Shown in pieces: positions 10,043 to 28,059 of a DNA stretch of 64,000 bases. A program made the translations under genes and the position numbers. The first letter of the stretch is position 1; each line of letters starts with the position of its first letter. The stretch spans positions 91,861-155,860 of the forward strand of contig NZ_JAAATY010000001.1 in the NCBI RefSeq assembly GCF_013280595.1. Reading direction: 5' to 3'. A model generated the notes under the pieces. It did no database searches. It was not told the DNA's origin and was given only the letters and a program-made list of their open reading frames with translations. The DNA comes from Kibdelosporangium persicum (lineage in GTDB: Bacteria > Actinomycetota > Actinomycetes > Mycobacteriales > Pseudonocardiaceae).

Positions 10043-11017
10043 CTACGCGGCGGTCAACTGCTCGTTCAACAGGTCGGCCACTGCGCCGATGGTGCGCAAC
10101 GTGGGTACCTTGACGCCGGTCAGATCGGCCAGCTCCACGACCGCCTTGATGATCACGTCCAACTCGAGGGGCTTGCCCTTCTCCAGGTCCTGGAGGGTGG
10201 ACGTCTTGTGCTCACCCGCTTTCTCGGCGCCGGCGAGCCTGCGCTCGACCGACATCCTGGGGTGGCACCCGAGGCTGGCGGCGACCTCGAGGGTCTCGGT
10301 CATCATCCTGACGACCAGTTCGCGGGTCTCGTCGTGACGGCAGATCGATGCCATCGTGGCCCGCGACAGTGCGCTGATCGGGTTGAACGCGATGTTGCCC
10401 ATCAGCTTGATCCAGATGTCGTTGCGCAGGTCGGCCTCGACCGGGCACTTCAGCCCGCCCGCGACCATCGCGTCGGAGAACTCCTTGCAGCGCACGGACA
10501 TCGTGCCGTCCGGCTCGCCGATCGAGAACCGGGTGCCTTCCAGGTGACGGATCACCCCGGGCTGTTCGATCTCGGTCGCCGCGTAGACCACGCAGCCGAC
10601 GGCACGGTGGACCGGTAGTGCTCTGCTCACCGCGCCGCCCGGATCGACGCTCTCGATCCGGTGACCCTCGTAAGGACCGGGCAACCCGTGGAAGTACCAG
10701 TACGGGATGCCGTTCTGTGCGGTGATCAGTGTCGTGGTCTCGTGCAGCAACGGTTTGACCATGGGGCCCGCCGCTGCGTACTGGTTGGCTTTGAGGCCGA
10801 GGAAGACGTGATCGACTGGCCCGACCTCTTCTGGGTTGTCGGTAGCGTACGGATGGACCTCGAAGTCTCCTCGCGGAGACAGTACCTTGAGACCCGACGC
10901 CTTGATCGCCTGCAGATGGGCTCCACGGGCGATCAGATGAACCTCGACTCCAGCACGATGGAGTCCGGCTCCGACATACGCGCCGATTGCACCGGCGCCA
11001 AGAACAGCAACTCTCAC
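10043..11017 (-). CDS. 2-dehydropantoate 2-reductase (ApbA/PanE) family protein
   Basis: 324 aa. The N-terminal Rossmann motif VAVLGAGAIGAYVGAGL binds NADP(H). The C-terminal helical domain has the family signature W-I-K-L-M-G-N-I-A-F-N-P, whose Lys is catalytic in PanE. Family enzymes reduce ketopantoate to pantoate for CoA synthesis; paralogues act on other 2-oxo acids, so the substrate is open. The GTG start at 11017 is chosen because GGAG lies six bases upstream; an in-frame extension to 11068 runs through operator site A. The site between this gene and the divergent selB-like gene suggests it belongs to the oxalate-type regulon, where extra CoA supply would make sense. Confidence 0.75.
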   Translation of the reverse strand: MRVAVLGAGAIGAYVGAGLHRAGVEVHLIARGAHLQAIKASGLKVLSPRGDFEVHPYATDNPEEVGPVDHVFLGLKANQYAAAGPMVKPLLHETTTLITAQNGIPYWYFHGLPGPYEGHRIESVDPGGAVSRALPVHRAVGCVVYAATEIEQPGVIRHLEGTRFSIGEPDGTMSVRCKEFSDAMVAGGLKCPVEADLRNDIWIKLMGNIAFNPISALSRATMASICRHDETRELVVRMMTETLEVAASLGCHPRMSVERRLAGAEKAGEHKTSTLQDLEKGKPLELDVIIKAVVELADLTGVKVPTLRTIGAVADLLNEQLTAA

Positions 11018-11044
11018 GGGCGGCTCCGTTCTTGCGTCGATAGT

Positions 11045-11063
11045 GTATTCAGTATACCGTATG
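11045..11063. promoter_or_regulatory. candidate FCD-regulator operator, site A
   Basis: On the minus strand it reads CATACGGTATACTGAATAC, nearly the same as site B (CATACGGTATGCAGTATGC). It lies in the 109-bp divergent region between the ketopantoate-reductase-like gene and the selB-like gene, placed to control both. Binding by the GntR/FCD protein is inferred. Confidence 0.55.
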
Positions 11064-11126
11064 AACACCTTCGGTCAACGGTGTCGAGGAGGCATGCCAA
11101 ATGCCTGGTACGGGGCGATATGAGCG

Positions 11127-12815
11127 ATGTTTGTGATCGCTACGGCCGGCCATGCCGACCACGGAAAGTCGACACTGGTGCAGCGGCTCACCGGGATGAC
11201 GCCGAACCTCGGTTCGGCGTGGACGAAATTGCCGTCCGGGCGCATGGTCGAATTGGTCGATTTGCCCGCGGCCGCCACTTTGGCGGGCATTTGCCCGGTC
11301 TCCGCGGTACTCCTGGTGGTCGCCGCGGACTCCGGCTGGATGCCGCAGTCCGGTGAGCATTTGGCGGCGCTCAACGCGTTAGGAATCCGGCACGGCCTGC
11401 TCGTGGTGACCCGCAGCGACCTGGCCGATCCGCTGTCCACGGTGCGGCGCGCTCGCGCGGAGCTGGCCGGCACCAGCCTCGCCGAGGCCGAACCGGTCGT
11501 GGTCAGCGGTTCGACCGGCGAAGGCATTCCTCAGCTGCGGCACGCGCTGGACCGGCTCGCCGACCGGATGCCGCCGTCCGGCACGGATACCGCCGTGCGG
11601 CTGTGGGTGGACGAGACGGCGGGAACAGTCGTCACCGGCACACTTCCGGTTGGCACTTTGCACACCGGAGATGAATTGGTGGTCGCGCCGACCGGGCGCC
11701 GGGTCCGAATCGAGTCCCTCGAGTCACTCGGGCGGCCGGTGAACCAGGTGATCGCGCCGGGCCGGGTGGCGGCCGGAATCGACGGAATCAATCCCCGGCG
11801 GATGCGCCGGGGACAGGCTCTGGTCGCGCCGAACAGCTGGCGATTCGTGGCCGTTGTCGACGTGCGGCTGAAGATGCTGGACAAATCGGGGATGCCGGCG
11901 CGGGAACTGGTGTTGCACATCGGTTCGGCCGCAATACCCGCCCAGGTCCGTCATCTCGGCCCCTCGGTGGCGCGGCTGACGCTGCGCTCCCCGTTGCCGC
12001 TGCGGCTCGGCGACTCCGGCCTGTTGCACGATCCGCAGCGGCACCTGGTCGTCGCCGGTGTCACCGTGCTCGACATCCTGCCGCCCGACCTGCGGCTCGG
12101 CGGGACCGTCGCCGAACGCGCCGTCGAACTGTCCAAACGCGACATCACCACCGACGGCATGGCGGAGTTGCGCAGGCGTGGCATGGTCCGGCGCAGTGAC
12201 CTCGTCGCCATGGGATGTACGGTGCCGCGCGCGCCGTCGGTGGGGGAGTGGCTGTTCGATCCCGACCGGTTCCAGAAGCTGCGCCAGTCCCTGCTCGAGG
12301 CCGTGCGCGAGTACGCCGCCCGGCATCCCGAGGACCCGGCGATGCCCAAACCCCTTGCCGCGCAGACGATCGGCCTGCCGGATCGCCGGCTGGTCGAGCC
12401 GCTGGCGCGGGCGTCACGGGGACTGGGCGTGCGCATGTTGGGCGGACGGCTCGTACTGGGCCCGCGTGACGCGCTGGAAAAGCTGATCGACGATCTGGCG
12501 ATGGAACCCTTCGCCGCGCCGGAACAACCCAGGCTCGCCGAGCTGGGCCTGACCACCAAGCGGCTGAACGCCGCTGTGGCGAGGGGAATGCTGATCCGGC
12601 TGGCCGACGGGGTCTACCTCCGGCCGGACGCGATCGACCTGGCCAAGGCCGTGCTGACCGAACTGCCCGAGACGTTCACGGTGGCACAGGTGCGCACAGC
12701 GCTGCGGACGAGCAGGCGCGTGGCCGTGCCTCTGCTGGAACTGCTGGACGCCCGGGGGGTGACCGAGCGACTCGACGCAAGTCAACGACGACTGCGGAAG
12801 GGGCGGCGGCAGTGA
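11127..12815 (+). CDS. SelB-like translation factor with degenerate GTPase switch regions
   Basis: 562 aa, related to the selenocysteine-specific elongation factor SelB by its N-terminus (MFVIATAGHADHGKSTLV) and by domain order: G domain, two beta-barrel domains (about 190-350) and a C-terminal winged-helix region (about 400-562) that in SelB binds the SECIS RNA. G1 is intact, but switch I is shortened, G3 reads VDLPAAATL where D-x-P-G-H is expected, and G4 is TRSD. GTP hydrolysis and normal factor function are therefore doubtful. No selC tRNA, selA, selD or selenoprotein is visible here. It overlaps the DUF6457 gene by GTGA and shares operator site A with the PanE-like gene. Alternatives: a non-canonical SelB or an RNA-binding protein derived from one. 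Confidence 0.7.
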   Translation: MFVIATAGHADHGKSTLVQRLTGMTPNLGSAWTKLPSGRMVELVDLPAAATLAGICPVSAVLLVVAADSGWMPQSGEHLAALNALGIRHGLLVVTRSDLADPLSTVRRARAELAGTSLAEAEPVVVSGSTGEGIPQLRHALDRLADRMPPSGTDTAVRLWVDETAGTVVTGTLPVGTLHTGDELVVAPTGRRVRIESLESLGRPVNQVIAPGRVAAGIDGINPRRMRRGQALVAPNSWRFVAVVDVRLKMLDKSGMPARELVLHIGSAAIPAQVRHLGPSVARLTLRSPLPLRLGDSGLLHDPQRHLVVAGVTVLDILPPDLRLGGTVAERAVELSKRDITTDGMAELRRRGMVRRSDLVAMGCTVPRAPSVGEWLFDPDRFQKLRQSLLEAVREYAARHPEDPAMPKPLAAQTIGLPDRRLVEPLARASRGLGVRMLGGRLVLGPRDALEKLIDDLAMEPFAAPEQPRLAELGLTTKRLNAAVARGMLIRLADGVYLRPDAIDLAKAVLTELPETFTVAQVRTALRTSRRVAVPLLELLDARGVTERLDASQRRLRKGRRQ

Positions 12816-13078
12816 AGTTCTCCCTCACACACAACAAGGTCCTGGACGAATGGGCCGAGCTGGCCGTCGCCGAACTCGGCGTCGGTCCGGACGAACTGGA
12901 CAAGCAGGAACTGTTGTCCGTGGCGCACTGTGTCGCCAGGGACGTGGGCGGCTCGGCCGCCGCACTGGCTTGTTACCTGATCGGAATCGCTGTCGGACGG
13001 GGGATGTCCTTGTCCGAGGCGGCATCCCGAGTGTCCACAGTGGTGGAACGGTGGCGCGGCGTGGACTGGCGCGACTGA
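12812..13078 (+). CDS. small DUF6457-like protein
   Basis: 88 aa, GTG start overlapping the selB-like stop (GTGA). The sequence (LDEWAELAVAELGVGPDELD... then ACYLIGIAVGRG) resembles the short helical DUF6457 domain, which in other actinobacteria occurs alone or attached to molybdopterin-guanine dinucleotide enzymes. That would hint at a molybdenum enzyme such as formate dehydrogenase, the expected consumer of formate from oxalate, but no such enzyme lies in this window. The family assignment is from memory of the pattern and is moderate. Confidence 0.55.
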   Translation: MKFSLTHNKVLDEWAELAVAELGVGPDELDKQELLSVAHCVARDVGGSAAALACYLIGIAVGRGMSLSEAASRVSTVVERWRGVDWRD

Positions 13079-13118
13079 AGTCTGGACAAAGGGACGTCAG
13101 GAGGTCCACTATGAAGTA

Positions 13119-13137
13119 CATACGGTATGCAGTATGC
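13119..13137. promoter_or_regulatory. candidate FCD-regulator operator, site B
   Basis: CATACGGTATGCAGTATGC lies 20 bases upstream of the TPP-lyase start. It shares 12 identical bases, GTATGCAGTATG, with the reverse strand of site E before sucC. Its position in the only promoter-sized gap (13079-13156) before the six-gene operon makes it the likely control point of that operon. Confidence 0.6.
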
Positions 13138-13156
13138 GACCCGAGGAGCTGACCAG

Positions 13157-14890
13157 ATGGCACAAACGGCCCAGGCGGTGCCCGAGAACGCAGGTGTCGA
13201 GGCATCCAACGGTGCCGCTGAGCCCGAGATGATCTCTGGTGGTCACCTCGTGGCTAAGGCGCTCAAAGCCGAAGGCATCGATGTGATCTTCACGCTCTGC
13301 GGCGGTCACATCATCGATATCTACGACGGCTGTGTCGACGAGGGCATTGAAGTGGTCGACGTACGCCACGAGCAGGTGGCGGCGCACGCGGCCGACGGGT
13401 ACGCCCGCATCACCGGCAAGCCCGGTTGCGCGGTCGTCACCGCGGGCCCAGGCACGACCGACGCGGTGACCGGTGTCGCCAACGCGTTGCGTGCGGAGAG
13501 CCCGATGCTCCTGATCGGCGGCCAGGGTGCGTTGAGCCAGCACAAGATGGGCTCACTGCAGGACCTGCCGCACGTCGACATGATGACCCCGATCACCAAG
13601 TTCGCCGCGGGCGTGCCGCACACCGAGCGCATCGCCGACCTGGTGTCGATGGCGTTCCGTGAGGCGCTGGCCGGCGCGCCCGGCCCGTCGTTCCTGGAGA
13701 TCCCGCGCGACATCCTGGACGCGAAGGTGCCGCTGGCCAAGGCCCGTATCCCCGAGGCGGGCCGCTACCGCGCCTCCACCCGCTCGATCGGCGACCCGGC
13801 CGACATCGAGCGCCTCGCGGACCTGATCGTGCACTCCGAGAAGCCCTGTGTGCTGCTCGGCAGCCAGGTCTGGACCACCAGGGGCAGCGATGACGCGATC
13901 GACTTCGTGCGCACGCTGAACATCCCGGCGTTCATGAACGGCTCCGGCCGCGGCACCCTGCCGCCCGGCGACCCGCACCACCTGCAACTGGCGCGCCGCT
14001 ACGCGTTCCAGAACTCCGACCTGATCATCATCGTCGGCACCCCGTTCGACTTCCGGATGGGGTACGGCAAGCGGCTTTCGCCGTCGGCCACGGTCGTGCA
14101 GATCGACCTGGACTACCGCACGGTCGGCAAGAACCGCGACATCGACCTCGGCATCGTCGGCGACGCCGGTGCCGTGCTCGCCGCGGTCACCCAGGCCGCG
14201 TCCGGCCGCACCAGCACCGGGGCCGCCAACCGCAAGGCCTGGCTGGAGGAGCTGCGGGGCGTCGAGGACGCCGCGTACCAGAAGCGCCTGCCGCGCCAGC
14301 ACTCCGACGCCAGCCCGATCGACCCGTACCGGCTGGTGCACGAGATCAACGAGTTCCTCACCGAGGACTCGATCTACATCGGCGACGGCGGTGACATCGT
14401 CACCTTCTCCGGCCAGGTCGTGCAGCCCAAGTCGCCCGGCCACTGGATGGACCCCGGTCCACTGGGGACGCTCGGTGTCGGTGTGCCCTTCGTGCTGGCG
14501 GCCAAGTACGCCCGCCCGGACAAGGAGGTCGTCGCGCTGTTCGGTGACGGCGCCTTCTCGCTGACCGGCTGGGACTTCGAGACGCTGGTCCGCTACAACC
14601 TGCCGTTCGTCGGCATCGTCGGCAACAACTCGTCGATGAACCAGATCCGCTACGGCCAGATCGCCAAGTACGGCGCCGACCGCGGCCGCGTGGGCAACAC
14701 GCTCGGCGACGTCAGGTACGACGAGTTCGCCAAGATGCTCGGCGGCTACGGCGAGGAAGTGCGTGACCCCAAGGACATCGGTCCCGCGCTGCGGCGCGCC
14801 CGGGAGTCCGGCCTGCCGTCGCTGATCAACGTCTGGGTGGACCCGGAGGTCTACGCGCCCGGCACGATGAACCAGACCATGTACAAGTAG
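13157..14890 (+). CDS. TPP-dependent lyase/decarboxylase, probable oxalyl-CoA decarboxylase or 2-hydroxyacyl-CoA lyase type
   Basis: 577 aa. All three TPP-enzyme domains are present: the N-terminal Pyr domain with activating Glu72 in [15 protein letters not shown], the central domain, and the PP domain with GDG (463-465) through NN (490-491), which binds Mg-TPP. Pairing with formyl-CoA:oxalate CoA-transferase points to oxalyl-CoA decarboxylation to formyl-CoA and CO2. However, the region that reads Q-G-D-Y-E-E in known oxalyl-CoA decarboxylases reads [10 protein letters not shown] here, and the PP domain ([11 protein letters not shown]...[11 protein letters not shown]) looks more like IlvG/2-hydroxyacyl-CoA lyase enzymes, so specificity is open. 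The ATG at 13157 has GAGGAG eight bases upstream; an upstream in-frame extension crosses site B. First gene of the operon. Confidence 0.75.
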
Positions 14891-14903: not shown

Positions 14904-16133
14904 ATGGGCAAGGCACTCGACGGCGTTCGCGTCCTGGACTTCACCCACGTCCAGTCCGGGCCCTCCGCCACTCAGATCCTGGCGTGGCTGGGAGCCGATG
15001 TGGTCAAAGTGGAGGCTCCGACCGGCGACATCACCCGCAAGCAGCTGCGGGACCTGCCGGACGCGGACTCGCTGTACTTCACGATGCTCAACTGCAACAA
15101 GCGCAGCATCACGCTGAACATGAAGAGCGACCGGGGCAAGCAGCTGTTCACCGAGATGATCGGCAAGTTCGACGTCATGGTGGAGAACTTCGGCCCCGGA
15201 GCGGTGGACCGGATGGGGTTCCCGTGGGAGAAGCTCCAGGAGCTCAACCCGCGGCTGATCTACGCGTCCATCAAGGGTTTCGGCGACGGCCCTTACACGC
15301 ACTACAAGGCGTACGAAGTGGTGGCTCAGGCCATGGGCGGCTCGATGAGCACCACCGGCTTCGAAGAGGGCCCGCCGCTTGCCACCGGCGCGCAGATCGG
15401 CGACTCCGGCACCGGTATGCACGCCGTGGCAGGCATTCTTGCCGCGCTGTACCAGCGTGAGCAGACGGGACGCGGCCAGCGCGTGACGGTCGCGATGCAG
15501 CACGCGGTGCTCAACCTGTGCCGCGTCAAGCTTCGCGACCAGCAGCGCCTGACCCACGGCCCGCTCAAGGAGTACCCGAACAAGGAGTTCGGCGACACGG
15601 TGCCGCGTTCGGGCAACGCCTCCGGCGGTGGACAGCCGGGATGGGCGGTGCGTTGCGCACCGGGCGGGCCGAACGACTACGTCTACGTGATCGTCCAGCC
15701 GGTGGGCTGGGAACCGATCACCCAGCTGATCGGCCGCACCGACCTGACCGAGGACCCCGAGTGGGCCACCCCGGAGGCCCGGCTGAACAAGCTGGACAAG
15801 ATGTTCCAGCTGATCGAGGAATGGTCGATCAACCACACCAAGTGGGATGTGCTCGCGATGCTGAACAAGCATAACATCCCCTGTGGACCGATCCTGTCCA
15901 CCAAGGAGATCATCAACGACGATTCGTTGCGCGCCAACGACATGGTCGTCGATGTTCCGCACCCGCAGCGGGGCACGTTCACCACGGTCGGCATGCCGAT
16001 CAAGCTGTCCGACTCGCCTGCGGAGGTCGAGCGCTCACCGCTGCTCGGCGAGCACAACAGGGATATCTACGTCCAGGAACTGGGCGTCGCCGAGGAGGAG
16101 CTCGCCGAGCTCTCCGCGAACGGAGTGATCTAG
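14904..16133 (+). CDS. frc: formyl-CoA:oxalate CoA-transferase
   Basis: 409 aa, class III (CaiB/BaiF) CoA-transferase. It matches the Frc/YfdW pattern along its whole length: [19 protein letters not shown] at the N-terminus, catalytic Asp167 in GDSGTGMH, the active-site glycine loop GGGQPGW (241-247), and [13 protein letters not shown]. The reaction is formyl-CoA + oxalate to oxalyl-CoA + formate. GGGAGGG precedes the ATG. It lies 13 bases after the TPP lyase and 4 bases before the acyl-CoA ligase gene. This is the gene that best fixes the substrate of the operon as oxalate. Confidence 0.88.
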
Positions 16134-16137: not shown

Positions 16138-18270
16138 ATGAGTTACGACGCCGAGACGGTCCGGGAGATCCTGGACAAGGTGCGGGCCGAGGGCCGTGAG
16201 GCGCTGACCGCGCCAGAGGGCAAGCGCGTGTGCGACGCCTACGGCATCCCGACACCCGGCGAAGGACTGGCCGCGACCGCCGACGAGGCGGTCGCGCTGG
16301 CCGAGAAGATCGGCTTCCCGGTCGTCATGAAGATCGTGTCGCCGGACATCCTGCACAAAACGGAAGCAGGCGGTGTCCTGGTCGGCGTCGCGGACGCCGA
16401 CGGCGCACGGTCGGGCTACGACCAGATCATCGCCAACGCGAAGAACTACAAGGCCGACGCGCAGATCGACGGCGTGCAGGTGCAGCAGATGGTCGGTGGT
16501 GGCCAGGAGGTCATCATCGGTGCCACGACCGACCCGACGTTCGGCAAGGTCGTCGCGTTCGGACTCGGCGGCGTGCTGGTCGAGGTGCTCAAGGACGTCA
16601 CCTTCCGGCTCGCGCCGGTGAGCCAGGACGAGGCACTGTCCATGCTGGACGGCATCGCGGCCGCCGAAGTCCTCAAGGGAGCCAGGGGCGCCGACCCGGT
16701 CGACGCGGACACGCTGGCCGACGTGCTGCGCCGGGTGTCCGAACTGGTCACCGACTTCCCGGAGATCAGCGAGTTCGACCTCAACCCGGTGTTCGCCTCG
16801 AAGGACGGCGCGGTCGCCGCGGACGTGCGGATCATCCTGCAGACCGGACCGGTCACGCCCCGCGAGCAGATCCCGCAGGAGGAGATCCTGCGGGTGATGA
16901 CCAAGCTGATGAATCCCGCCGCCGTCGCCGTGATCGGTGCCTCCGACCAGGAGGGCAAGATCGGCAACTCGGTGATGAAGAACCTGATCAACGGCGGCTA
17001 CCAGGGCGGGATCCACCCGATCAACCCCAAGGCCGACGAGATCATGGGCAAGAAGGCCTACGCGTCGGTCAAGGACATCCCCGGTGACGTCGACGTCGCG
17101 GTGTTCGCCATCCCGGCGAAGTTCGTGCCCGCCGCGCTGGAGGAGTGCGGCGACAAGGGCATCCCGGCCGCGGTGCTGATCCCGTCCGGCTTCGCCGAGA
17201 CCGGCAACCACGAGCTGCAGGACGAGATCGTCGAGATCGCCAGGCGGCGCGGGATCCGCATGCTCGGCCCGAACATCTACGGCTACTACTACACGCCGCA
17301 GAACCTGTGCGCCACGTTCTGCACGCCGTACGACGTCAAGGGCGGCGTCGCGCTGACCTCGCAGAGCGGCGGCATCGGCATGGCGATCCTCGGCTTCGCC
17401 CGGTCGACCAAGATGGGTGTGTCCGCGATCGTCGGGCTGGGCAACAAGTCCGATGTGGACGAGGACGACCTGCTGACGTACTTCGAGCAGGACGACAACA
17501 CCAACGTCATGGCCATGCACCTGGAAGACCTCAAGGACGGCAGGGCCTTCGTCGGCGCGGCGAAGCGGATGACCAAGAAGAAGCCGGTCATCGTGCTCAA
17601 GGCAGGCCGGACCGACATGGGTGCCCGTGCGGCCAGCTCGCACACGGGTGCGTTGGCGGGCAACGACAAGGTGTACGACGACATCCTCAAGCAGGCGGGC
17701 GTGATCAGGGCGCCGGGCCTGAACGAGATGCTGGAGTACGCCCGTGGTGTGCCGCTTCTGCCCACGCCACAGGGCGAGAACGTGGTGATCATCACCGGGG
17801 CCGGTGGCTCCGGTGTGCTGCTCTCGGACGCGGTCGTCGCGGAAGGACTGTCCTTGATGGACATTCCATCGGATCTCGACGAGGCGTTCCGGAAGTTCAT
17901 CCCGCCGTTCGGTGCCGCGGGCAACCCGATCGACATCACCGGTGGTGAACCCCCGTCGACGTACGAGGCCACCATCCGGCTGGGGCTTGAGGACCCCCGC
18001 ATCCACGCGCTGATCCTCGGCTACTGGCACACCATTGTCACACCGCCTATGGTGTTCGCCGAACTGACCGCGCGAGTCGTCGAGGAGGCCAGGGCGAAGG
18101 GCATCGACAAGCCGGTGGTGGCGTCACTCGCCGGTGACGTCGAGGTGGAACGCGCTTGTGAGTACCTCTATGACAGGCGCATTGTGGCGTACCCGTACAC
18201 CACCGAGAAACCGGTGGCGGTGCTGGGTGCGAAGTACCGGTGGGCCAGGGCGGCTGGGCTGCTCGGCTGA
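16138..18270 (+). CDS. ADP-forming acyl-CoA synthetase (acetate-CoA ligase family)
   Basis: 710 aa, single-chain fusion. An ATP-grasp domain comes first (about residues 5-235, HKTEAGGV...), then a CoA-binding Rossmann domain (about 255-375, VAVIGASDQEGKIGNSV) and succinyl-CoA-ligase-like domains with His502 in SSHTGALAG, the expected phospho-His. Family members interconvert acyl-CoA + ADP + Pi and acid + CoA + ATP. Between frc and a transporter it could activate oxalate directly, recover energy from formyl-CoA, or prime the CoA-transferase cycle; the sequence cannot decide. The ATP-grasp-first order is the reverse of many archaeal alpha-beta fusions. A hairpin follows at 18283. Confidence 0.82.
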   Translation: MSYDAETVREILDKVRAEGREALTAPEGKRVCDAYGIPTPGEGLAATADEAVALAEKIGFPVVMKIVSPDILHKTEAGGVLVGVADADGARSGYDQIIANAKNYKADAQIDGVQVQQMVGGGQEVIIGATTDPTFGKVVAFGLGGVLVEVLKDVTFRLAPVSQDEALSMLDGIAAAEVLKGARGADPVDADTLADVLRRVSELVTDFPEISEFDLNPVFASKDGAVAADVRIILQTGPVTPREQIPQEEILRVMTKLMNPAAVAVIGASDQEGKIGNSVMKNLINGGYQGGIHPINPKADEIMGKKAYASVKDIPGDVDVAVFAIPAKFVPAALEECGDKGIPAAVLIPSGFAETGNHELQDEIVEIARRRGIRMLGPNIYGYYYTPQNLCATFCTPYDVKGGVALTSQSGGIGMAILGFARSTKMGVSAIVGLGNKSDVDEDDLLTYFEQDDNTNVMAMHLEDLKDGRAFVGAAKRMTKKKPVIVLKAGRTDMGARAASSHTGALAGNDKVYDDILKQAGVIRAPGLNEMLEYARGVPLLPTPQGENVVIITGAGGSGVLLSDAVVAEGLSLMDIPSDLDEAFRKFIPPFGAAGNPIDITGGEPPSTYEATIRLGLEDPRIHALILGYWHTIVTPPMVFAELTARVVEEARAKGIDKPVVASLAGDVEVERACEYLYDRRIVAYPYTTEKPVAVLGAKYRWARAAGLLG

Positions 18271-19887: not shown

Positions 19888-20444
19888 TGACAGTGCCGAA
19901 TCGAGGGGCAGCACGAGTACGCGAGCTGGCAGAAGTTTCCCGTCCCGGATTCGCCGTCGGTTTCCTCGCCGGCAGTGTCGCCGGACTGATGGCGCTGATC
20001 GTCGGTCAGCCGATCGGCTGGGCGATGGTGAGCGCGTTGGCGCTCGGGTTGCCGCTCGGGCTGCTCGGCGCCGTCTACAGTGTCCTGATCGCCTTGGGCA
20101 AGGTCCGCCTCGGCGGTTTCGCCCCGGCCTGCCTGTTCTGGCTGATCGGCTTCCCCCTGTCGCGCCTGTCACAGGAGGTGCTGACCCGCCTGGTGCTGAC
20201 CGGAGAGCTCGGCGGCCCGCCCGACGTCCTTGGTTTCCTTGCCTACCAAGGGCTGATCAGCGCGGGGTTCGCGTTCGGGTTCCTCTGGATGCACGAACGC
20301 CTTGCGCCACGCTGGTGGCACAGGATGTCCGGCCAGAACCCGACTGCACTGCGGGTCTATGATCGCTACGCCTCACATGCGCGTGTCATGTGGGAGGCGC
20401 GAGAGGCGCGTAAACGCAGGCGGGAGGCGAGCAAAGCCCGATGA
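19887..20444 (+). CDS. hypothetical four-helix membrane protein
   Basis: 185 aa. After a short N-terminus the sequence has about four hydrophobic segments (FAVGFLAGSVAGLMALIVG, AMVSALALGLPLGLLGAVYSVLIAL, APACLFWLIGFPLS, FLAYQGLISAGFAFGFLWM) and ends in a basic tail (EAREARKRRREASKAR). No family recognised. It is coupled on both sides: its ATG overlaps the Nramp-like stop and its TGA overlaps the TerC ATG, so it is likely an accessory of one of these two transporters. Confidence 0.65.
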   Translation: MTVPNRGAARVRELAEVSRPGFAVGFLAGSVAGLMALIVGQPIGWAMVSALALGLPLGLLGAVYSVLIALGKVRLGGFAPACLFWLIGFPLSRLSQEVLTRLVLTGELGGPPDVLGFLAYQGLISAGFAFGFLWMHERLAPRWWHRMSGQNPTALRVYDRYASHARVMWEAREARKRRREASKAR

Positions 20445-21427
20445 ACATCCCCACATGGGTTTGGCTGGTCACAGTGGCCGGTCTGTCCGCGATGATCATG
20501 TTCGACTTCTATCTGGTGTCGCGTAATCCGCGGAAACCCTCCATGCGGGAATGCACTCTGTGGGTGTCGGCCTACGTGGGCCTCGCCGTCCTCTTCGGAT
20601 TCGGCGTGACCCTGTTCGCAGGCGGGCAGCATGGTGGTGAGTTCTTCGCAGGCTGGATCACCGAGTATTCGCTGTCGGTGGACAACCTGTTCGTGTTCAT
20701 CATCATCATGGGCACCTTCGCTGTTCCCAAGCAGTTCCAACAGAAGGTGTTGTCGATCGGGATAGTCCTGGCACTGCTGATGAGAGGTTTGTTCATCGCG
20801 GTGGGAGCCCAGGCCGTCTCCCGATTCGACTGGTTGTTCTACATCTTCGGCGCCTTCCTCATCTACACGGCCTGGAAGCTCATCCGCCACCAGGACGACG
20901 ATGAGGAAGAATTCACAGAGAACGCGGTTCTCCGCGTGGCCAAGAAATTCCTGCCGGCCACGGACTCCTATGACGGGGCCAAGCTGACCACCAGGGTGGA
21001 CGGGCGAAAGATGGTCACGCCGATGCTGATCGTGATGATCGCGATCGGTACCACGGACCTGCTTTTCGCCCTGGATTCCATCCCGGCGATCTTCGGCCTC
21101 ACCAAGGAGCCCTACCTGGTGTTCACCGCGAACGCGTTCGCCCTGATGGGCCTGCGACAGCTGTACTTCCTGATCGGCGGCTTGCTGGACAAGCTCGTCT
21201 ACCTCAGCAAGGGGCTGTCGATCGTTCTCGCCTTCATCGGCGTGAAACTCGTGTTCGAGGCTCTGCACCACGACGGTGTGAGCTGGGCTCCGGAAATTCC
21301 GATCCTGGTCTCACTCGGCACCATTCTCGGCACGCTGGCGGTGACGACGGTGGCGAGTTTGATCAAGGTTCGGCGGCAACCGAAGGAAGCGGAGCCCAAG
21401 TCAGTGACCGTTACGGCGGCTGACTGA
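20441..21427 (+). CDS. TerC family integral membrane protein
   Basis: 328 aa with eight or so helices. The two TerC signatures are present: EYSLSVDNLFVFIIIM (about residues 71-86) and TTDLLFALDSIPAIFG (about 202-217), whose acidic residues are proposed to bind metal. TerC relatives such as Alx export Mn2+ or protect metal-loaded envelope enzymes. Last gene of the operon. Metal handling fits an oxalate locus because oxalate chelates divalent cations, but that is my inference. The charged loop HQDDDEEEF lies between helices. Confidence 0.82.
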   Translation: MNIPTWVWLVTVAGLSAMIMFDFYLVSRNPRKPSMRECTLWVSAYVGLAVLFGFGVTLFAGGQHGGEFFAGWITEYSLSVDNLFVFIIIMGTFAVPKQFQQKVLSIGIVLALLMRGLFIAVGAQAVSRFDWLFYIFGAFLIYTAWKLIRHQDDDEEEFTENAVLRVAKKFLPATDSYDGAKLTTRVDGRKMVTPMLIVMIAIGTTDLLFALDSIPAIFGLTKEPYLVFTANAFALMGLRQLYFLIGGLLDKLVYLSKGLSIVLAFIGVKLVFEALHHDGVSWAPEIPILVSLGTILGTLAVTTVASLIKVRRQPKEAEPKSVTVTAAD

Positions 21428-21462: not shown

Positions 21463-21651
21463 TCATCCGGCCGTCTTGGCGTCTGCCTTCTTGGTGTCGC
21501 TGTCGCGCAGGTAGGTCTCGACCTCGTCGGAGAGACCCCGCTCGGCCCGCGCCATGGCGGCCGTGAGTCCCACACCGATCATGCCGCCGTCCGCCGAAGC
21601 GCCCAGCGGACCACGGGTGAGAGTCTCGAAGATCTCCCGGATCCTGCTCAT
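21463..21651 (-). CDS. 62-aa conserved-looking small protein, unknown
   Basis: Sequence MSRIREIFETLTRGPLG... is soluble, with an amphipathic start, a Gly-rich middle (GGMIGVGLTAAMARAE) and a charged tail (TKKADAKTAG). GGAGGAGTG lies upstream of the ATG. It has its own divergent promoter region (21652-21893) carrying a site-C match to the FCD operator. It converges on terC. No function is assigned; codon use fits a real gene, but shortness leaves doubt. Confidence 0.5.
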   Translation of the reverse strand: MSRIREIFETLTRGPLGASADGGMIGVGLTAAMARAERGLSDEVETYLRDSDTKKADAKTAG

Positions 21652-21694
21652 CTGACTTTCACTCCTCCTAGTCGTGTCGATCGTTCTGGTCGAC

Positions 21695-21710
21695 TGCCTA
21701 CAGCATACAA
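21695..21710. promoter_or_regulatory. candidate FCD-regulator operator, site C
   Basis: The reverse strand reads TTGTATGCTGTAGGCA, matching the core of sites B and E (GTATGCAGTATG) at 10 of 12 positions. It lies 44 bases upstream of the 62-aa gene and could serve the VOC gene as well. Confidence 0.45.
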
Positions 21711-21732
21711 TCCGTACAACCGTCCTGGTCGG

Positions 21733-22371: not shown

Positions 22372-23568
22372 CTAAAAGGGTGGGATCTCGTAGCGTTCCG
22401 GGGTGGTCACGACGGTTCTGCTGGCCGGCGTGTGGAAGACGAGTGTGCCTGGTTCGATCTGTTCGATCCTCCAGTTGGTGCGTTGGCGCATGAGGTTGTG
22501 GCGCTTGCAGAACATGGCGGTGTTGTCTTGCGCGGTGAGCCCGCCGGACGCGTACGTCTTGGTGTGGTCGGTCTGGCAGCGTTCGGCCGGGACTGTGCAG
22601 CCTGGTTGACGGCATACTCTGTCGCGCATCTGGATGTGACGTTTCAGCGTGGGGGAGGCGAACCGTCGCCTGCTGACTTCCAGCACCTGCCCGCTCGGGT
22701 CCGTGAGCACTCGTCGCCATGTGGCGTTCTGGGCGAGTTCGCGTGCGTATTCGGCTGTGATGGGCCCGTAGCCGCTGATCTCGCCTGGTTCCTGGTTCAG
22801 GCCCATGAGCGTCGTCATCGGGACCAGGACGTTCACGGCCACCGGCGGTTGCTTGGATTCCTTGCCCAGCACCAGGTCCATGAACACGTCGGCCTTGCGG
22901 TGCGCCAAGCTGCGTCCGGTGCTCCCGGCCTGCTCGGCCAGGGAAGTGATGCGGGCATAGGCCGCTTGAGCCTCGTGCGGCTCCATGGTGATGGTCAGCG
23001 ACGTGGTGCCGTCCGGCTTGTCCCACTTCGTCACATCGCGCTTGGCGCGGGCGAGCCGCCTGCGTTCGTTGGCGGCCGCGGGGTCGGCGCGGATGACTTC
23101 ACGGCGGAGGCTGTGCTTGAACCGGGTGAGATTTTCACGCTGCCCGCCGTCCAGCACGCGTCTCTCCACTCTGGACGCCTGGTCATCGTCCAGGTCGGCG
23201 GTGTAGTCGTGCATCGCCTTGGCACACATGTAGTCGATGGCGCCTGCTTCGAGGGCGTCGACGGTCGCGCCCAGGCGTTTGACGAGCGCCTGGGCGAAGG
23301 CGATCTGGCTGGAGGTGGTGTTGGGGCTGAGGTTGAGTTCCATCGCCACTTCCTCGGCGGCGCCGTCGCCGAGGTCGATTCCCCGGCGGCCGGGTGGGCG
23401 ATGCTCGGCCAACCGGGCCAGAGACCGGAGAAACAGGGCTTCCGCGCGGCATTTCTCCCGGTGGTGGTAACCGGCGCTGTCGAGGGCCTCCTCGTCGTCC
23501 ATCGCTTCGATGGGGACCTCCGGCGGTGGCTTCACCTCCCGGAATCGGACTGTCAGTTGTTCGCTCAT
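22372..23568 (-). CDS. DUF222 / HNH endonuclease domain protein (13E12-type)
   Basis: 398 aa. A long helical DUF222 region covers about residues 20-320, and the C-terminus carries an HNH nuclease module: CRQPGC...CQTDHTKTYASGG...N-T-A-M-F-C-K-R-H-N. These multi-copy proteins of high-GC actinobacteria are often linked to mobile or repetitive DNA; the biological role is not settled. It stands alone inside the oxalate island, next to a decayed transporter fragment, which suggests that rearrangement took place here. Confidence 0.85.
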   Translation of the reverse strand: MSEQLTVRFREVKPPPEVPIEAMDDEEALDSAGYHHREKCRAEALFLRSLARLAEHRPPGRRGIDLGDGAAEEVAMELNLSPNTTSSQIAFAQALVKRLGATVDALEAGAIDYMCAKAMHDYTADLDDDQASRVERRVLDGGQRENLTRFKHSLRREVIRADPAAANERRRLARAKRDVTKWDKPDGTTSLTITMEPHEAQAAYARITSLAEQAGSTGRSLAHRKADVFMDLVLGKESKQPPVAVNVLVPMTTLMGLNQEPGEISGYGPITAEYARELAQNATWRRVLTDPSGQVLEVSRRRFASPTLKRHIQMRDRVCRQPGCTVPAERCQTDHTKTYASGGLTAQDNTAMFCKRHNLMRQRTNWRIEQIEPGTLVFHTPASRTVVTTPERYEIPPF

Positions 23569-23671: not shown

Positions 23672-23850
23672 GTGGTACACGGTTGGTCGTGGAAGAGCGC
23701 GTTCTGGCTGGCCAGTGTCTGGGCGGTGTTCCAGGCCGGGGTCGCCTTTCCGGAGGGCAAGCGGCGCGAGAAGGCGTCATGTCGGCGCGGACGGCGATGA
23801 CCGCGGACGCGGTCTGCGGCGGCCTCGGCTACCTCGGGAGCAGGTCAATT
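23672..23850 (+). pseudogene. decayed fragment of an OxlT-like (OFA) MFS transporter
   Basis: From 23672, frame 2 reads HGWSWKSAFWLASVWAVFQ then AGVAFPEGKRREK, clearly parallel to [19 protein letters not shown] then [15 protein letters not shown] in the MFS protein at 24644-25987. A single-base deletion near 23775 shifts the match to frame 1, which continues GVMSARTAMTADAVCGGLGYLG, again like an OFA transporter's next helix. No start and no further helices remain. It points in the opposite direction to the intact carrier. I read it as the relic of a second oxalate/formate-type carrier; 23569-23671 also holds the HNH gene's promoter region. Confidence 0.65.
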
Positions 23851-23897
23851 CCTCCCCTGGGGCCCAAGAACACCGCATCTTGGCACATCAGGGGAGG
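23851..23897 (-). terminator. terminator of the FCD regulator gene
   Basis: CCTCCCCTG (23851-23859) pairs with CAGGGGAGG (23889-23897), with an inner CCAAGA/TCTTGG stem. It lies 12 bases beyond the stop of the GntR/FCD gene on the minus strand. Confidence 0.65.
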
Positions 23898-23909
23898 AGC
23901 CGGGCAAAC

Positions 23910-24647
23910 CTATTCCGCTTCGGAGACCCGCTGGTCGTGATACGCCTGGCGGGTCCTTTCCGTGTGCCGGTTCATGATCGTGCTCGCCAGGTCCGCGTCG
24001 TGCGCGGCGATCGCCTTGATCAGCTCGGCGTGCTCGGCCCACGCGTCATGGCCACGCGGGCGGGCGATCGGCCGGTAGTACCACCGGACGCGGCGCTCGA
24101 CCAACGCGATGTGCTCGGCCAGGACCGCGTTCCGGGAGATCTCGGTGATGTACGCGTGCAGCGCCGCGTTCGCGGCGGTCATGCCTTCCGCGTCGTCGGT
24201 CTCCACCGCGGCCTCACCTTCGCGCTGCAGTTCCCACAGCCGCGCGACTTCCTCCTCGGTGGCCCGGCCTGCCGCCAGCCGGGCGGAGTGCGTCTCCAGC
24301 ACCGAACGCACGCTCAGCAGCTGGTCGGCCTCCTCCTCGGTCGGTGTGTGCACGAACGCGCCCTGCGCGGGGCGCAGGTCGACCCAGCCTTCGGTTTGCA
24401 GGCGCTGCAACGCTTCGCGCACCGGTTGCCTGCTGACTCCCAGGTACTGAGCCAGTTCCAGCTCGACCAAGTGCTGACCTGGCTGCAGGGTGCCGTTGAT
24501 GATCAGCTCGATCAGCGCGGAGTGGACGGCTTCGCGCAGCGGAGCGGGCCGCTCGACCCGTTGGGTCGCGGCCCCGCTCAGCGCGCCTCGTCCACCCCGT
24601 TTGCCGCTCCCGAGTGGCTCGGGAAGCTGGATCACGGGTTCGTTCAC
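23910..24647 (-). CDS. GntR/FadR-family (FCD) transcriptional regulator
   Basis: 245 aa. The N-terminal winged helix has the GntR recognition stretch YLGVSRQPVREALQRLQTEG; the C-terminal FCD helical domain has spaced His/Glu residues (NAALHAYI, EHAELIKAI, RHTERTRQAY) that usually bind a metal and a carboxylate effector. The GTG start at 24647 is set by GGAGG six bases upstream and by the GTGA overlap with the MFS stop. Operator-like site D lies 36 bases upstream, inside the MFS coding end, suggesting autoregulation. It is the obvious candidate to bind sites A-E with oxalate, formate or a CoA thioester as effector (inferred). Confidence 0.8.
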   Translation of the reverse strand: MNEPVIQLPEPLGSGKRGGRGALSGAATQRVERPAPLREAVHSALIELIINGTLQPGQHLVELELAQYLGVSRQPVREALQRLQTEGWVDLRPAQGAFVHTPTEEEADQLLSVRSVLETHSARLAAGRATEEEVARLWELQREGEAAVETDDAEGMTAANAALHAYITEISRNAVLAEHIALVERRVRWYYRPIARPRGHDAWAEHAELIKAIAAHDADLASTIMNRHTERTRQAYHDQRVSEAE

Positions 24648-25987
24648 CTGGTTCCTCCCGAACCGACGGACGACATCGTTGTGTCTACAACATACATTAT
24701 GGGAAGCGTGGATACATGTCCTGGACGGCGCAGGCGCACGCTCAGTATCGCCGATCCGAGCGCGACCAGCCCGGATATCAGGAAAACGGCAGGGAATCCC
24801 CACGCCGGGACCGCCAGTGCGGCGAGTCCGACGCCGATCACGCCGCCGAACGCCTTCGCGCTGTAAACCACCCCGTGGGTCTTGGCGACGTCGCGGTCGC
24901 CGAAGAACTCCCTGGCCAGGCTGGCGAAAAGCGGATAGAACGCGCCACCGCCCGCGCCGGCCAGCGTGGCCGCGACCAGGAGCAGGAAGATCGATCCGGA
25001 GGACGCCGCGCCGGCGAGGAACACCTGGCCGACGGCCTGGGCCACCAGCACGGCGCCGATCGCGCGCCTGCGGCCGATCTGGCCGGAGATCCGGATCGCC
25101 AGCGATCTCCCGGCGCCGTTGGCGCCGAGCAGAACGGCCGTGCCGATGGCCACGACGACCAGACCAATCCCCATCTGGGCGCCGAGGACGGCGAAGAAGG
25201 TGACCGTGAACAGCGACACCGCGCTGGCCGTCAGCAGAACGAAGTACATCAACGGAAGCACGCCCGTGCGTAGCGCTTCCCGCACTGAGAACTGCCGTAC
25301 CGCACGTGATGGGCTACGCCTGCGATCGACCGCCCATTCCTGCGGGTCGATGTGCGGCGGCCACCAGTTCGCCGGTGGGTCACGGAAGAAGACGCCGGTC
25401 GTGGCCACGACAACGCCCACGATCACCGCGGCGACGTCCAGAGCGATCGTCGGCGGCGAGAACAGGAACGCGATCGCGAACGGCACCGCGCCGTAAGCGA
25501 AAGCACCGGTCACGAAGCTCACCCGGGACGCCATCTGCTCGGGATGCCACTTCGCCACGGTCGACGTGCAGGTCGCGTAGACCAATCCCGCGCCGGTGCC
25601 GCCGAGCACCGAATAGCCGAGCAAAGCCATGACGTACGAGTCGAAATGCGCCAGCGAGACCATTCCCGCCAGCATCAGCACCGCGCCGAGCACCATCACC
25701 GCGCGCGGCCCGAGCTTGCCGCGCTCCCGCAGATAGGCGGTGGGGAACCCGGCGACCGCCTGGAAGACGGCCCACGCGGCCAGCAGCCAGAGGGTTTCCC
25801 TGACGCCCCAGCCGCGTTCGGCGAGCTGGGGGACGAGCGAGCCGAAGGCGTACTGCATCACCCCGGTCGCCGCCATCGCCGCCCAGGGCAGCCAGGCCAT
25901 CCAGGCCCGCGAACGACCGATGAGCTCTTCGGGAACCGGGCCGAGGAGATACGTCCGGCCAAAGCAATCCCGCACCGATGGATACAT
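24644..25987 (-). CDS. OxlT-like MFS transporter (oxalate/formate antiporter family)
   Basis: 447 aa, 12 membrane helices. OFA-family marks include [20 protein letters not shown] at helix 1, [18 protein letters not shown] in helix 4 and the loop motif [11 protein letters not shown] after helix 6. OxlT exchanges oxalate for formate, which would couple well to the Frc reaction here. AGGAGGG lies before the ATG. The last about 25 residues ([21 protein letters not shown]) are not transporter-like and overlap operator site D, so the gene end may have been reshaped. Divergent from sucC across a 52-bp region containing site E, and coupled to the regulator gene downstream. Confidence 0.85.
24683..24698. 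promoter_or_regulatory. candidate FCD-regulator operator, site D
   Basis: The reverse strand reads AATGTATGTTGTAGAC; the forward strand shares GTCTACAAC with site E. It lies within the MFS coding end, upstream of the regulator start, consistent with an internal promoter for the regulator under its own control. Confidence 0.4.
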
Positions 25988-26017
25988 CTCGCCCTCCTAC
26001 CTCTGGACAGGCCGCTC

Positions 26018-26036
26018 CATACTGCATACAGTCTAC
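26018..26036. promoter_or_regulatory. candidate FCD-regulator operator, site E, overlapping the sucC promoter
   Basis: CATACTGCATACAGTCTAC; its reverse strand contains GTATGCAGTATG, identical to site B. It ends three bases before the sucC GTG, so it must overlap the sucC -10 region (TACAGT at 26027-26032) and also faces the divergent MFS gene. Confidence 0.6.
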
Positions 26037-26039
26037 AAC

Positions 26040-27179
26040 GTGGACCTGTACGAGTATCAAGCCAAAGAGCTCTTCTCGAAGCACGGCGTCCCGGTCGGCC
26101 CGCAACGGGTCGTCACCAATCCGACCGACGCCGTAGCCGCCGCCCGGATCCTCGGCCTGCCTGTCGTGATCAAGGCACAGGTCAAGACGGGAGGGCGCGG
26201 CAAGGCGGGCGGCGTCAAGCTGGCCCGCACCACCGACGACGTGACCGCGCATGCCGAGGCGATCCTTGGTTTGGACATCAAGGGCCACATCGTGCGTAAG
26301 GTGCTTGTCACTCCGGCGTCCGAGATCGCCGGCGAGTACTACTTCTCGTTCCTGCTCGACCGTGCCAACAGGACGTTCCTCGCGCTCGCCTCCGCGGCGG
26401 GCGGCGTGGAGATCGAGGACAACGCCGACACCCTGGCGCGCGTACCGATCGACCCGATCGAGGGCGTGGACCTGGCCAAGGCCAGGCAGATCGCGGCCGA
26501 GGCGGGAATTCCCGAGGCCGCCGCGCCGACCATCGTCCGGCTGTGGAAGGCCTTCGTGGCCGAGGAGGCCACGCTGGTCGAGGTCAACCCGCTGGTCAGT
26601 GACTCGGCCGGGGAGATCATGGCGCTGGACGGCAAGGTCACCCTGGACGACAACGCGGACTTCCGGCACCCGGGGCACGCCGACTTTGTCGACACCGCGG
26701 CCGAGGATCCGTTGGAGGCCAGGGCGAAGTCGAAAGGCCTCAACTACGTCAAGCTCGACGGGCAGGTCGGTGTCATCGGCAACGGCGCGGGGCTGGTCAT
26801 GTCCACTTTGGATGTCGTCGCCTACGCGGGCGAGGCGCACGGTGGCGTGAAGCCCGCCAACTTCCTGGACATCGGCGGTGGCGCGTCGGCCGAGGTGATG
26901 GCCAACGGCCTGGAGATCATCCTGTCCGACCCGGACGTGCGCAGCGTGCTGGTCAACGTGTTCGGCGGCATCACCGCGTGCGACGCGGTGGCCAACGGCA
27001 TCGTGCAGGCGTTGCGGTTCCTCGGCAAGGTCGACAAGCCGATCGTGGTCCGGCTCGACGGCAACAACGCCGAGGAGGGCCGCCGGATTCTCGAAGAGGC
27101 CGCGCTGCCCGCCGTCGTGCAGATCGAGACGATGGACGCCGCCGCCGAGCACGCGGCCAAGCTGGCAGCAGGGGTGTGA
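26040..27179 (+). CDS. sucC: succinate-CoA ligase (ADP-forming) beta subunit
   Basis: 379 aa, full length for the family. ATP-grasp N-terminus [34 protein letters not shown], and the C-terminal ligase segment [16 protein letters not shown]. With SucD it makes succinyl-CoA from succinate, CoA and ATP, or the reverse. The GTG start at 26040 matches the universal N-terminus and has no Shine-Dalgarno; a -10-like TACAGT lies directly before it, so the mRNA is probably leaderless. Promoter placement next to site E suggests that this copy is controlled with the transporter, either as the sole TCA enzyme or as a specialised acid:CoA ligase. Confidence 0.93.
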
Positions 27180-27180
27180 C

Positions 27181-28059
27181 ATGGCGATTTTCATCGACGA
27201 GAACTCCAAGGTGATCGTCCAGGGCATGACCGGCGCGGAGGGCCGCAAGCACACCGCGCGGATGCTCGCCGCCGGCACGAACATCGTCGGCGGCGTGACG
27301 CCGGGCAAAGGCGGCCAGTCCGTCGAAATAGGACAGAAGGAACTGCCCGTCTTCGACTCGGTCGGCAAGGCGATGGCCGACACGGGCGCCGATACGTCGG
27401 TGATCTTCGTGCCGCCGAGGTTCGCCAAAGCCGCTGTGGTGGAAGCGATCGACGCCGAGATCGGCCTCGCGGTCGTGATCACCGAAGGCATCCCGGTGCA
27501 CGACTCCGCGTGGTTCTGGGCGCACGCGGTCGCCAAGGGCAACAAGACCCGGATCATCGGCCCGAACTGCCCCGGCATCATCTCGCCCGGCAAGTCCAAC
27601 GCGGGCATCATCCCGGCCGACATCACCACGGCCGGCCGGATCGGCCTGGTGTCCAAGTCCGGCACGCTGACGTACCAGCTGATGTACGAACTGCGGGACA
27701 TCGGCTTCTCCACGGCCATCGGGATCGGGGGCGACCCCGTGGTCGGCACGACCCACATCGACGCGCTCGCGGCGTTCCAGGAGGACCCAGAGACCGAGCT
27801 GATCGTGATGATCGGTGAGATCGGCGGCGACGCCGAGGAGCGCGCGGCGGCGTTCATCCAGCAGAACGTCACCAAGCCGGTCGTCGGCTACGTCGCGGGC
27901 TTCACCGCGCCGGAGGGCAAGACCATGGGCCACGCGGGCGCGATCGTGTCCGGCTCGGCCGGTACCGCTGCCGCGAAGAAGGAGGCCCTTGAGGCGGCCG
28001 GCGTGCAGGTCGGCAAGACGCCGAGCGAGACCGCGACCTTGGCCCGTCAAGCCCTCTGA
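27181..28059 (+). CDS. sucD: succinate-CoA ligase alpha subunit
   Basis: 292 aa. CoA-binding Rossmann start ([19 protein letters not shown]), the CoA-site sequence [17 protein letters not shown], and the phosphorylated His in [10 protein letters not shown] near residue 250. It begins two bases after the sucC stop, so the subunits are co-translated. The palindromic element 28081-28130 follows and separates it from cobL. Confidence 0.94.

Follow-up and report, generated by a model that had tools for sequence, protein, structure and literature searches.

The closest described systems to the locus reported here are the frc-oxc loci of Oxalobacter, E. coli (yfdXWUVE) and Cupriavidus (frc-oxc-apbA2), the PanE2 route of Methylobacterium extorquens, the actinobacterial 2-hydroxyisobutyryl-CoA lyase cluster and, on the regulatory side, HypR of Streptomyces coelicolor. 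According to the cited papers, the oxalyl-CoA reductase PanE2 is a member of the PanE family (PMC7486775, PMC8411744), FadR-subfamily operators are palindromes with a GT-N2/3-AC centre and additional half-sites 7–12 nt from that centre (PMC4494728), and Kribbella is a known actinobacterial oxalate user (cited in PMC10192776). The present analysis concerns a stretch of 64,000 nucleotides (the window), positions 91,861–155,860 of contig C1 of a 10.35-Mb Kibdelosporangium-like genome, and within it a group of genes around a formyl-CoA:oxalate CoA-transferase (Frc) and a thiamine pyrophosphate (TPP) enzyme, which an earlier reading of the letters (the original prediction) had taken for an oxalate regulon with a shared operator for a GntR/FCD regulator. 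We consider it probable, at roughly 70%, that the region is an oxalate-catabolism regulon under one GntR/FCD repressor. Every kind of protein named in the original prediction is present, the shared operator and regulon stand and oxalate is the best fit; the TPP enzyme, the Nramp-like protein and the SelB-like protein had to be reinterpreted, and one of the five operator sites is weak.

Related loci were collected by scanning genome contigs with the TPP enzyme of the window alone, and the best 80 of at least 591 relatives were fetched; because these are 82–99% identical at that protein, all locus counts describe close relatives. Gene-set counts are given out of 81 (the 80 loci plus the window), truncated or short contigs score as misses in the gene counts, and protein families were judged by Pfam and NCBIfam cut-offs in bits. 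The TPP gene is followed directly by frc and an acid-CoA ligase gene in 80/80 loci, accompanied by fcd in 65, panE in 61, mfs in 55, nramp in 52, sucC in 51 and terC in 43. Hosts include Pseudonocardiaceae, Streptosporangiaceae-type genera, Kribbella and Streptomyces. Outside Actinobacteria, panE, sucCD and the TPP, frc and ligase genes occur together with FCD-type regulators in Cupriavidus metallidurans and Caballeronia, and Phyllobacterium carries an equivalent set with annotated BhcR, oxlT and GntR genes; the TPP protein is 64–67% identical in these sets. The nearest TPP proteins (98–99% identical) belong to Kibdelosporangium aridum, K. philippinense and a record named Rhodococcus rhodnii NRRL B-16535. 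The whole locus of that last record is of the Kibdelosporangium type, with a 99% identical TPP enzyme and identical gene order, and the species name it bears is probably wrong.

For work on the operator the five closest kin (L001–L004 and L026) were set aside, leaving 75 loci and their upstreams of 200 bases plus 40. A palindromic matrix fitted on these upstreams, which was seeded with the consensus and is hence not wholly independent, reads about GYATACTGYATRCAGTATRC and reaches 22.9 bits; its threshold of 8.6 bits is the 99th percentile of shuffled upstreams, the best shuffle scoring 15.5 bits. De novo counting in the same upstreams, thinned to 213, returned the 8-mers ATACCGTA, ATACGGTA, ACTGCATA, ATACTGTA and ATACAGTA, each in 68–74 of the 213 against an expectation of about one. 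With a matrix built from the five aligned window sites, 707 positions in the 80 loci scored 12 bits or more, a count that includes both strands and overlapping registers and so exceeds the number of sites, compared with 13, 6, 16 and 27 for four column-permuted matrices.

Placement of the operator follows the transcription units. Across the 75 loci it lies upstream of panE (55/55), the TPP gene (73/78), fcd (62/64), sucC (48/51), the DUF6457 gene (9/9) and, less regularly, mfs (37/70), and it is absent before operon-internal genes (0/237: frc 0/75, ligase 0/75, nramp 0/48, terC 0/39). Distant paralogues scoring 61–217 bits account for three of the five TPP misses and, as GntR proteins of 61–63 bits, for both fcd misses; all 62 upstreams of close fcd homologues carry the operator. 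A second tally, by gene cluster over the 80 loci, gave TPP 71/80, panE 49/51, fcd 57/62, sucC 28/35, mfs 24/70, DUF6457 5/9, moeA 9/11, Mo-formate dehydrogenase alpha 8/18 and SelB-like 4/5; three small-protein groups gave 5/17, 0/11 and 5/6, fdhD 1/20, LysR 1/10, aldehyde dehydrogenase 0/12 and the 23 unnamed clusters listed 0/131. Operator centres lie at median distances of 27–88 bp from the estimated start, which suits a repressor. A shared operator and regulon, as the original prediction had proposed across these units, are thus supported by conserved placement before unit-leading genes, de novo words and genome-wide rarity. In C. metallidurans, related words (ATATCACATAC) are repeated upstream of panE and the TPP gene; in the fetched locus (positions 5284–9848) these include words like ATATATCACATACNNTAT, and they may possibly be a matching operator for its own FCD regulators.

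Within the window, all five predicted sites (11045, 13119, 21695, 24683 and 26018; A to E in Table 1) were located as claimed. Four of them hold the promoter-side positions ascribed to them; D lies within the mfs frame. The claim of a shared core was borne out in part: the 12-mer GTATGCWGTAKG occurs exactly at 13125, 21697 and 26018, and at up to three mismatches it falls to background (44 places in the window vs 50.4 expected), so that the true signal is the longer palindrome. The reported identity of B and E extends to the 16-bp core AKACNGYATRCNGTMT, which is exact at these two places only in 10.35 Mb, one mismatch adding three more, including A. The word TACWGCATACMRTMY, written from the window sites and so partly circular, is exact at three genome places (B, C and E). 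Looser probes lose the signal: a two-mismatch genome scan with TACWGCATACMRTMY (73 vs 97 in the control) and palindromic places with two mismatches over the whole genome (55 vs 80) stand at background, and a degenerate 13-mer was useless as a genome-wide probe (965 matches vs 1456 for its reversed control). Over the 145,817 bases of the same genome that were scanned for further regulon members (about 1.5 kb overlaps the window ends), the matrix scored highest within an MFS-like frame of L085 (12.3 bits) and within a second Nramp-like gene, that of L127 (9.1 bits).

Sites A, B, C and E are well supported. Site D is doubtful because of its weak score and its position inside the mfs frame (which has 447 codons): it scores below an unrelated place at 43937 (10.2 bits), and its sole remaining basis is that it lies about 45 bases upstream of the probable fcd start. 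Among 17 relatives that share this fcd–mfs order, 60–541 bases separate the end of the mfs match from the estimated start of fcd. In the window the probable start codon of fcd overlaps the mfs stop, so that the two genes appear to be cotranscribed under site E. The probable GTG start of sucC on the other side of E leaves no room for a ribosome-binding site, which suggests a leaderless message. In several Prauserella and other relatives, the site at the fcd promoter has the core of site C, GCCTACAGCATACAAT, and a small gene lies downstream of fcd there (e.g., L014); in the window the site directly precedes the gene for a 62-aa protein and fcd stands about 2.2 kb further on. The simple reading would be a split fcd–p62 unit.

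Oxalate is the best-supported substrate as judged from the proteins, because Frc scores above its equivalog cut-off, the reductase belongs to the family that includes PanE2, Phyllobacterium has an annotated oxlT and formate dehydrogenases adjoin the cluster. Frc retains Q17 and an Asp aligned to D169 of the E. coli enzyme, and its loop reads SGGGQPG for GGGGQPG, a single Gly-to-Ser change. By family membership, PanE is of the PanE/ApbA kind to which PanE2 belongs, and in Azospirillum and Phyllobacterium such genes adjoin or lie close to oxlT/frc genes; we propose that it reduces oxalyl-CoA. A Mo-type formate dehydrogenase alpha gene adjoins the cluster in 18 gene sets (656.6 bits, just under the cut-off of 666, with its frame split) and an NAD-type enzyme in nine (695 vs 329 bits); an aldehyde dehydrogenase gene is found in 12. 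Glyoxylate-linked genes (BhcR, gcl) and purine genes lie near the clusters of relatives.

Gene content, conserved order, the operator and its placement are direct observations; from these we infer FCD binding, repression, the inducer, the substrate and each enzyme and carrier activity in the following scheme. Without inducer, an FCD dimer would sit on 20-bp palindromes tens of bases upstream of panE, the TPP–frc–ligase–transport operon, the mfs–fcd and sucCD pair and the small gene, and block their transcription. Oxalate or a close product, bound in the FCD metal site, would release the repressor. Oxalate would then enter by the OFA-type and/or the Nramp-like carrier and become oxalyl-CoA by CoA transfer through Frc or through the acid-CoA ligase, while SucCD would contribute to the acyl-CoA supply. 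The TPP enzyme would decarboxylate oxalyl-CoA to formyl-CoA, from which Frc would move CoA to the next oxalate, leaving formate to be oxidised by formate dehydrogenase; PanE would turn part of the oxalyl-CoA into glyoxylate for assimilation.

Several observations weigh against this scheme. Two loci, L025 and L029, truly lack the operator before both the TPP gene and sucC, and L047 lacks it before sucC; the NAD formate dehydrogenase genes have none (0/9), and site D, at codons 429–435, is intragenic rather than intergenic. The MFS carrier stays under both oxalate/formate antiporter cut-offs (TIGR04259, 90 vs 335 bits; TIGR00890 in Table 1), and an 85% identical copy of the Nramp-like protein adjoins glycerol-type genes, which weakens its strict link to oxalate. 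As to the role of SucCD, PMC3720670 reports that YfdE and UctC, other class III transferases, have no succinyl-CoA/oxalate activity. Other points concern the TPP enzyme, which is present beside frc as predicted and is not a canonical oxalyl-CoA decarboxylase (OXC): it reaches 243 bits in the OXC model TIGR03254 (cut-off 739.4) and shares 26% identity with E. coli OXC across 549 positions. Among the key OXC residues E56, Y120, E121, Y483, S553 and R555 (PMC10192776), E56 is kept, Y120 is replaced by L and E121 by Q, as mapped by us through the E. coli DYEE motif; Y483, S553 and R555 are not seen as such in the alignment, which has gaps. The best solved relatives of the enzyme are 2-hydroxyacyl-CoA lyases (281 bits), OXC-titled chains from known OXC organisms reaching at most 223 bits, and some matches near 279 bits carry both names.

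These features of the TPP enzyme also favour the main rival, a regulon for a 2-hydroxy acid, in which the ligase or Frc would form a 2-hydroxyacyl-CoA, the TPP enzyme would cleave it, releasing formyl-CoA together with an aldehyde or ketone, and Frc would pass the CoA of formyl-CoA to the next acid. Actinobacterial 2-hydroxyisobutyrate breakdown runs this way up to formyl-CoA (PMC7176365, in part), and the aldehyde dehydrogenase gene of 12 gene sets would suit such a product. The same enzyme, however, falls below the actinobacterial 2-hydroxyacyl-CoA lyase model NF058623 (360 vs 600 bits), Frc is of the oxalate type (669 vs 504 bits), the aldehyde dehydrogenase genes carry no operator, and the PanE-type reductase, the annotated oxlT and the glyoxylate or purine genes beside relatives all point elsewhere. 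On balance we regard a 2-hydroxy acid as an unlikely substrate. We propose that the TPP enzyme is a non-orthologous oxalyl-CoA decarboxylase. No canonical OXC exceeds the TIGR03254 cut-off in the genome of the window or in 28 of the 30 genomes searched among the 80 relatives (genome completeness is not stated), and the two that have one are both Pseudonocardia.

Another rival is a flow from glyoxylate, with PanE as a CoA-acylating glyoxylate dehydrogenase and the remaining enzymes oxidising oxalyl-CoA to formate and CO2. Such a flow has been proposed for Cupriavidus necator (PMC7486775, in part), and it would fit the frequency of panE (61/80 loci, with operator) and the presence of BhcR and gcl near relatives. 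Yet the OFA-type carrier, the ligase and sucCD would be superfluous in it and belong to the same regulon, and we think this direction improbable compared with oxalate catabolism.

The FCD protein is the candidate binder of the operator and its presumed repressor, on the following grounds. Its GntR and FCD domains both exceed the Pfam cut-offs, which places it in the FadR subfamily, and the three-His metal site of TM0439 is present (H216, H258 and H280 in the numbering of a 297-codon frame, with E257 before H258). Metal-site residues are conserved in over 93% of 65 proteins; an Asp four residues upstream of the first His is replaced by Asn. The operator centre, G-Y-A-T-R-C (GT in 62%, GC in 34%), fits in part the subfamily rule (GT-N2/3-AC, TKGT/ACMA) with a 2-nt gap, and its outer boxes are similar to the extra half-sites of PMC4494728. 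That a different regulator binds the operator is suggested by 11 of 68 long loci that have at least one strong site and no fcd in the fetched stretch. The stretches of L001–L003, however, end short of where fcd sits in the window, loci with fcd have a median of three strong sites and those without a median of one, and fcd, itself preceded by the operator, is the commonest regulator of the clusters, the next family identified, LysR, occurring in 11 gene sets (not every cluster was identified). With the centre in partial agreement with the FadR-subfamily rule, we see little prospect for another binder. Chance or a repeat element as the origin of the five sites, which the background-level counts of the mismatched 12-mer might suggest, is rejected by conserved placement, the de novo 8-mers and the core being exact only at B and E. 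No FCD regulator of oxalate genes in Actinobacteria was recognised in the titles and abstract openings of the open-licence papers searched.

Two transporter types and an OxlT-like carrier, as predicted, are indeed present, with the MFS carrier below its antiporter models and the Nramp-like protein lacking the metal motifs. The latter belongs to the superfamily of the Nramp/MntH divalent metal transporters (NF037982), and its profile weakly matches a metal transporter of solved structure (E 0.0018), but it has GMGE in place of the DPGN of E. coli MntH, no MPH anywhere and a Pfam Nramp match under the cut-off; the TM1 position aligns with MntH and TM6 poorly, and the residues flanking GMGE vary little or not at all across 39 homologues. 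Directly downstream of the ligase gene lies an Nramp-like gene in 52 loci, an OFA-type MFS gene in 25 and other genes in two; in one locus this slot is cut off. Nramp-slot and MFS-slot loci differ in TerC (43/52 vs 0/25), the 180-aa membrane protein (33/52 vs 0/25) and the small family (29/52 vs 0/25), associations that partly follow taxonomy. In 21 of the 52 Nramp-slot loci the fetched stretch is without an MFS relative, although several stretches (L001–L003, L060 and others) stop too soon for this to be judged. The 85% identical copy, on contig C5 of the same genome (L127, 7326–8921), stands beside glpD-glpK-glpF-like genes by eye; the wider family also occurs beside isocitrate lyase in Aureimonas and, by eye, a dehydrogenase/IclR pair on contig C13 of the same genome. 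In Rubrobacter indicoceani (L123, 1566–8389) two Nramp-like genes lie among UxaA, lactate-utilisation, PdxA and racemase genes, a neighbourhood which suggests that the wider family transports carboxylates. No Nramp-type oxalate carrier was recognised in the same titles and abstract openings. A bolder version of the oxalate reading, which we offer tentatively and hold to be possible rather than probable, is a second, separately built oxalate pathway with a non-OXC TPP decarboxylase, an Nramp-like carrier that together with the 180-aa and TerC proteins would import oxalate or a metal–oxalate chelate in OxlT's place (TerC exporting the metal), an FCD repressor reading an operator code of its own and an enzyme core spread across Actinomycetota and Proteobacteria.

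The additional members of the predicted unit fared unequally. PanE-like, TerC and 62-aa proteins are kept in relatives, the SelB-like protein is found only in the window and the five close kin (76–92% identity, operator upstream in 4/5), and the VOC and DUF222 genes, without a conserved cluster among the related loci, were left out of the regulon. By sequence the SelB-like protein is a degenerate paralogue and not a SelB elongation factor, being 43.6% identical to the canonical SelB of the genome with gaps at switch I and DxPGH. Contig C23 of the same genome (L085, 8654–11842) carries selA and tRNA-Sec and, by eye, canonical selB, selD and fdhA genes, the last interrupted by a single in-frame TGA where selenocysteine is usually encoded. 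A link through SelB to a selenium-dependent formate dehydrogenase was dropped because the SelB-like protein is degenerate and no operator on C23 is convincing. Two conserved genes had escaped the original prediction, those of the DUF6457 protein and the 180-aa membrane protein. Members of the small ADGxxxGxGL family are 60–105 aa as called and lie near fcd, with no Pfam or NCBIfam match for those scanned. Genes of cobalamin synthesis (tetrapyrrole methylase, CbiC, CobN) follow sucD at 28096–40366, with other genes between.

Table 1 Features of the region (positions within the window; scores in bits against the model cut-off)
Feature	Position	Strand	Observations
PanE/ApbA-family reductase, proposed oxalyl-CoA reductase	10043..11017	-	NF005089 439 > 223; GTG start 11017 inferred from profile match
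Operator A	11045..11064	+	between panE and SelB-like gene; 25.2 bits; overlapping 19.0-bit register from 11038
SelB-like paralogue	11127..12815	+	TIGR00475 177.5 < 242.25; switch I and DxPGH segments missing
DUF6457 protein	12812..13078	+	60.9 > 27; operator upstream in 9/9 relatives beyond close kin
Operator B	13118..13137	-	19 bases upstream of TPP start codon; 27.5 bits; core exact
TPP enzyme, OXC/2-hydroxyacyl-CoA lyase kind	13157..14890	+	proposed non-canonical oxalyl-CoA decarboxylase; frc directly after in 80/80 loci
Frc, formyl-CoA:oxalate CoA-transferase type	14904..16133	+	TIGR03253 669 > 504.2; 54% identical to E. coli Frc
ADP-forming acid-CoA ligase	16138..18270	+	Pfam ATP-grasp_5, CoA_binding_2, Succ_CoA_lig, Ligase_CoA_2; below every NCBIfam cut-off shown
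Nramp-superfamily protein without metal motifs, proposed oxalate carrier	18397..19887	+	NF037982 465 > 50
180-aa membrane protein	19902..20444	+	start inferred; conserved gene
TerC/Alx-family membrane protein	20441..21427	+	TIGR03718 380 > 246
62-aa protein, conserved small family (ADGxxxGxGL)	21463..21651	-	by pattern in 30/81 gene sets, window included
Operator C	21689..21715	+	two overlapping registers, 17.3 and 12.6 bits
DUF222 protein gene	22372..23568		no conserved cluster
GntR/FCD regulator	23910..24647	-	245 aa; probable GTG start 24647 behind GGGAGG; FCD 84.8 > 24.3, GntR 66 > 27
OFA/OxlT-like MFS carrier	24644..25987	-	MFS_1 105 > 33; TIGR00890 133 < 374.85
Candidate operator D	24683..24702	+	weak, 8.3 bits; in codons 429-435 of mfs
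Operator E	26017..26036	+	between mfs and sucC, three bases before probable sucC GTG; 28.7 bits; core exact
sucC, succinate-CoA ligase beta	26040..27179	+	start inferred; NF001913 482 > 370 for longer frame 25740-27179
sucD, succinate-CoA ligase alpha	27181..28059	+	NF004230 442 > 336

Surveys for canonical oxc would miss these genomes, because none lies above the cut-off in that of the window and in 28 of 30 relatives. The defined operator and regulator offer a switch open to direct testing, and two biochemical questions follow: whether an enzyme without the OXC residues can decarboxylate oxalyl-CoA, and whether an Nramp-superfamily protein can carry a carboxylate. The locus had been called larger than known oxalate loci, which is only partly new: roles around oxalyl-CoA are already known for the panE, sucCD and formate-dehydrogenase genes. 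With the frc-oxc loci it shares Frc, an adjoining TPP enzyme, an OFA/OxlT-like carrier and a PanE2/ApbA2-type reductase; it differs in a TPP enzyme distant from E. coli OXC and without Y120 and E121, and adds the ligase, sucCD, the Nramp-like/180-aa/TerC block and an FCD regulator with its own operator. As in the M. extorquens route from oxalyl-CoA to glyoxylate (PMC8411744, PMC7486775), a PanE-family reductase stands in one regulon with a putative oxalyl-CoA-forming enzyme. The 2-hydroxyisobutyryl-CoA lyase cluster has in common a TPP lyase-type enzyme, a CoA ligase, a GntR regulator and selenium-dependent formate dehydrogenases, whereas a Frc-type partner is not described in the accessible part of PMC7176365 and the TPP enzyme of the window fails the lyase model. 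HypR, a FadR-subfamily regulator (PMC6608401, in part), shares the winged helix-turn-helix and FCD domains, metal-site histidines and, if the FCD protein binds as proposed, autoregulation; its GT-N2-AC centre is matched in part, whereas the window-type operator has strong outer ATAC/GTAT boxes and its regulon covers oxalate-type genes.

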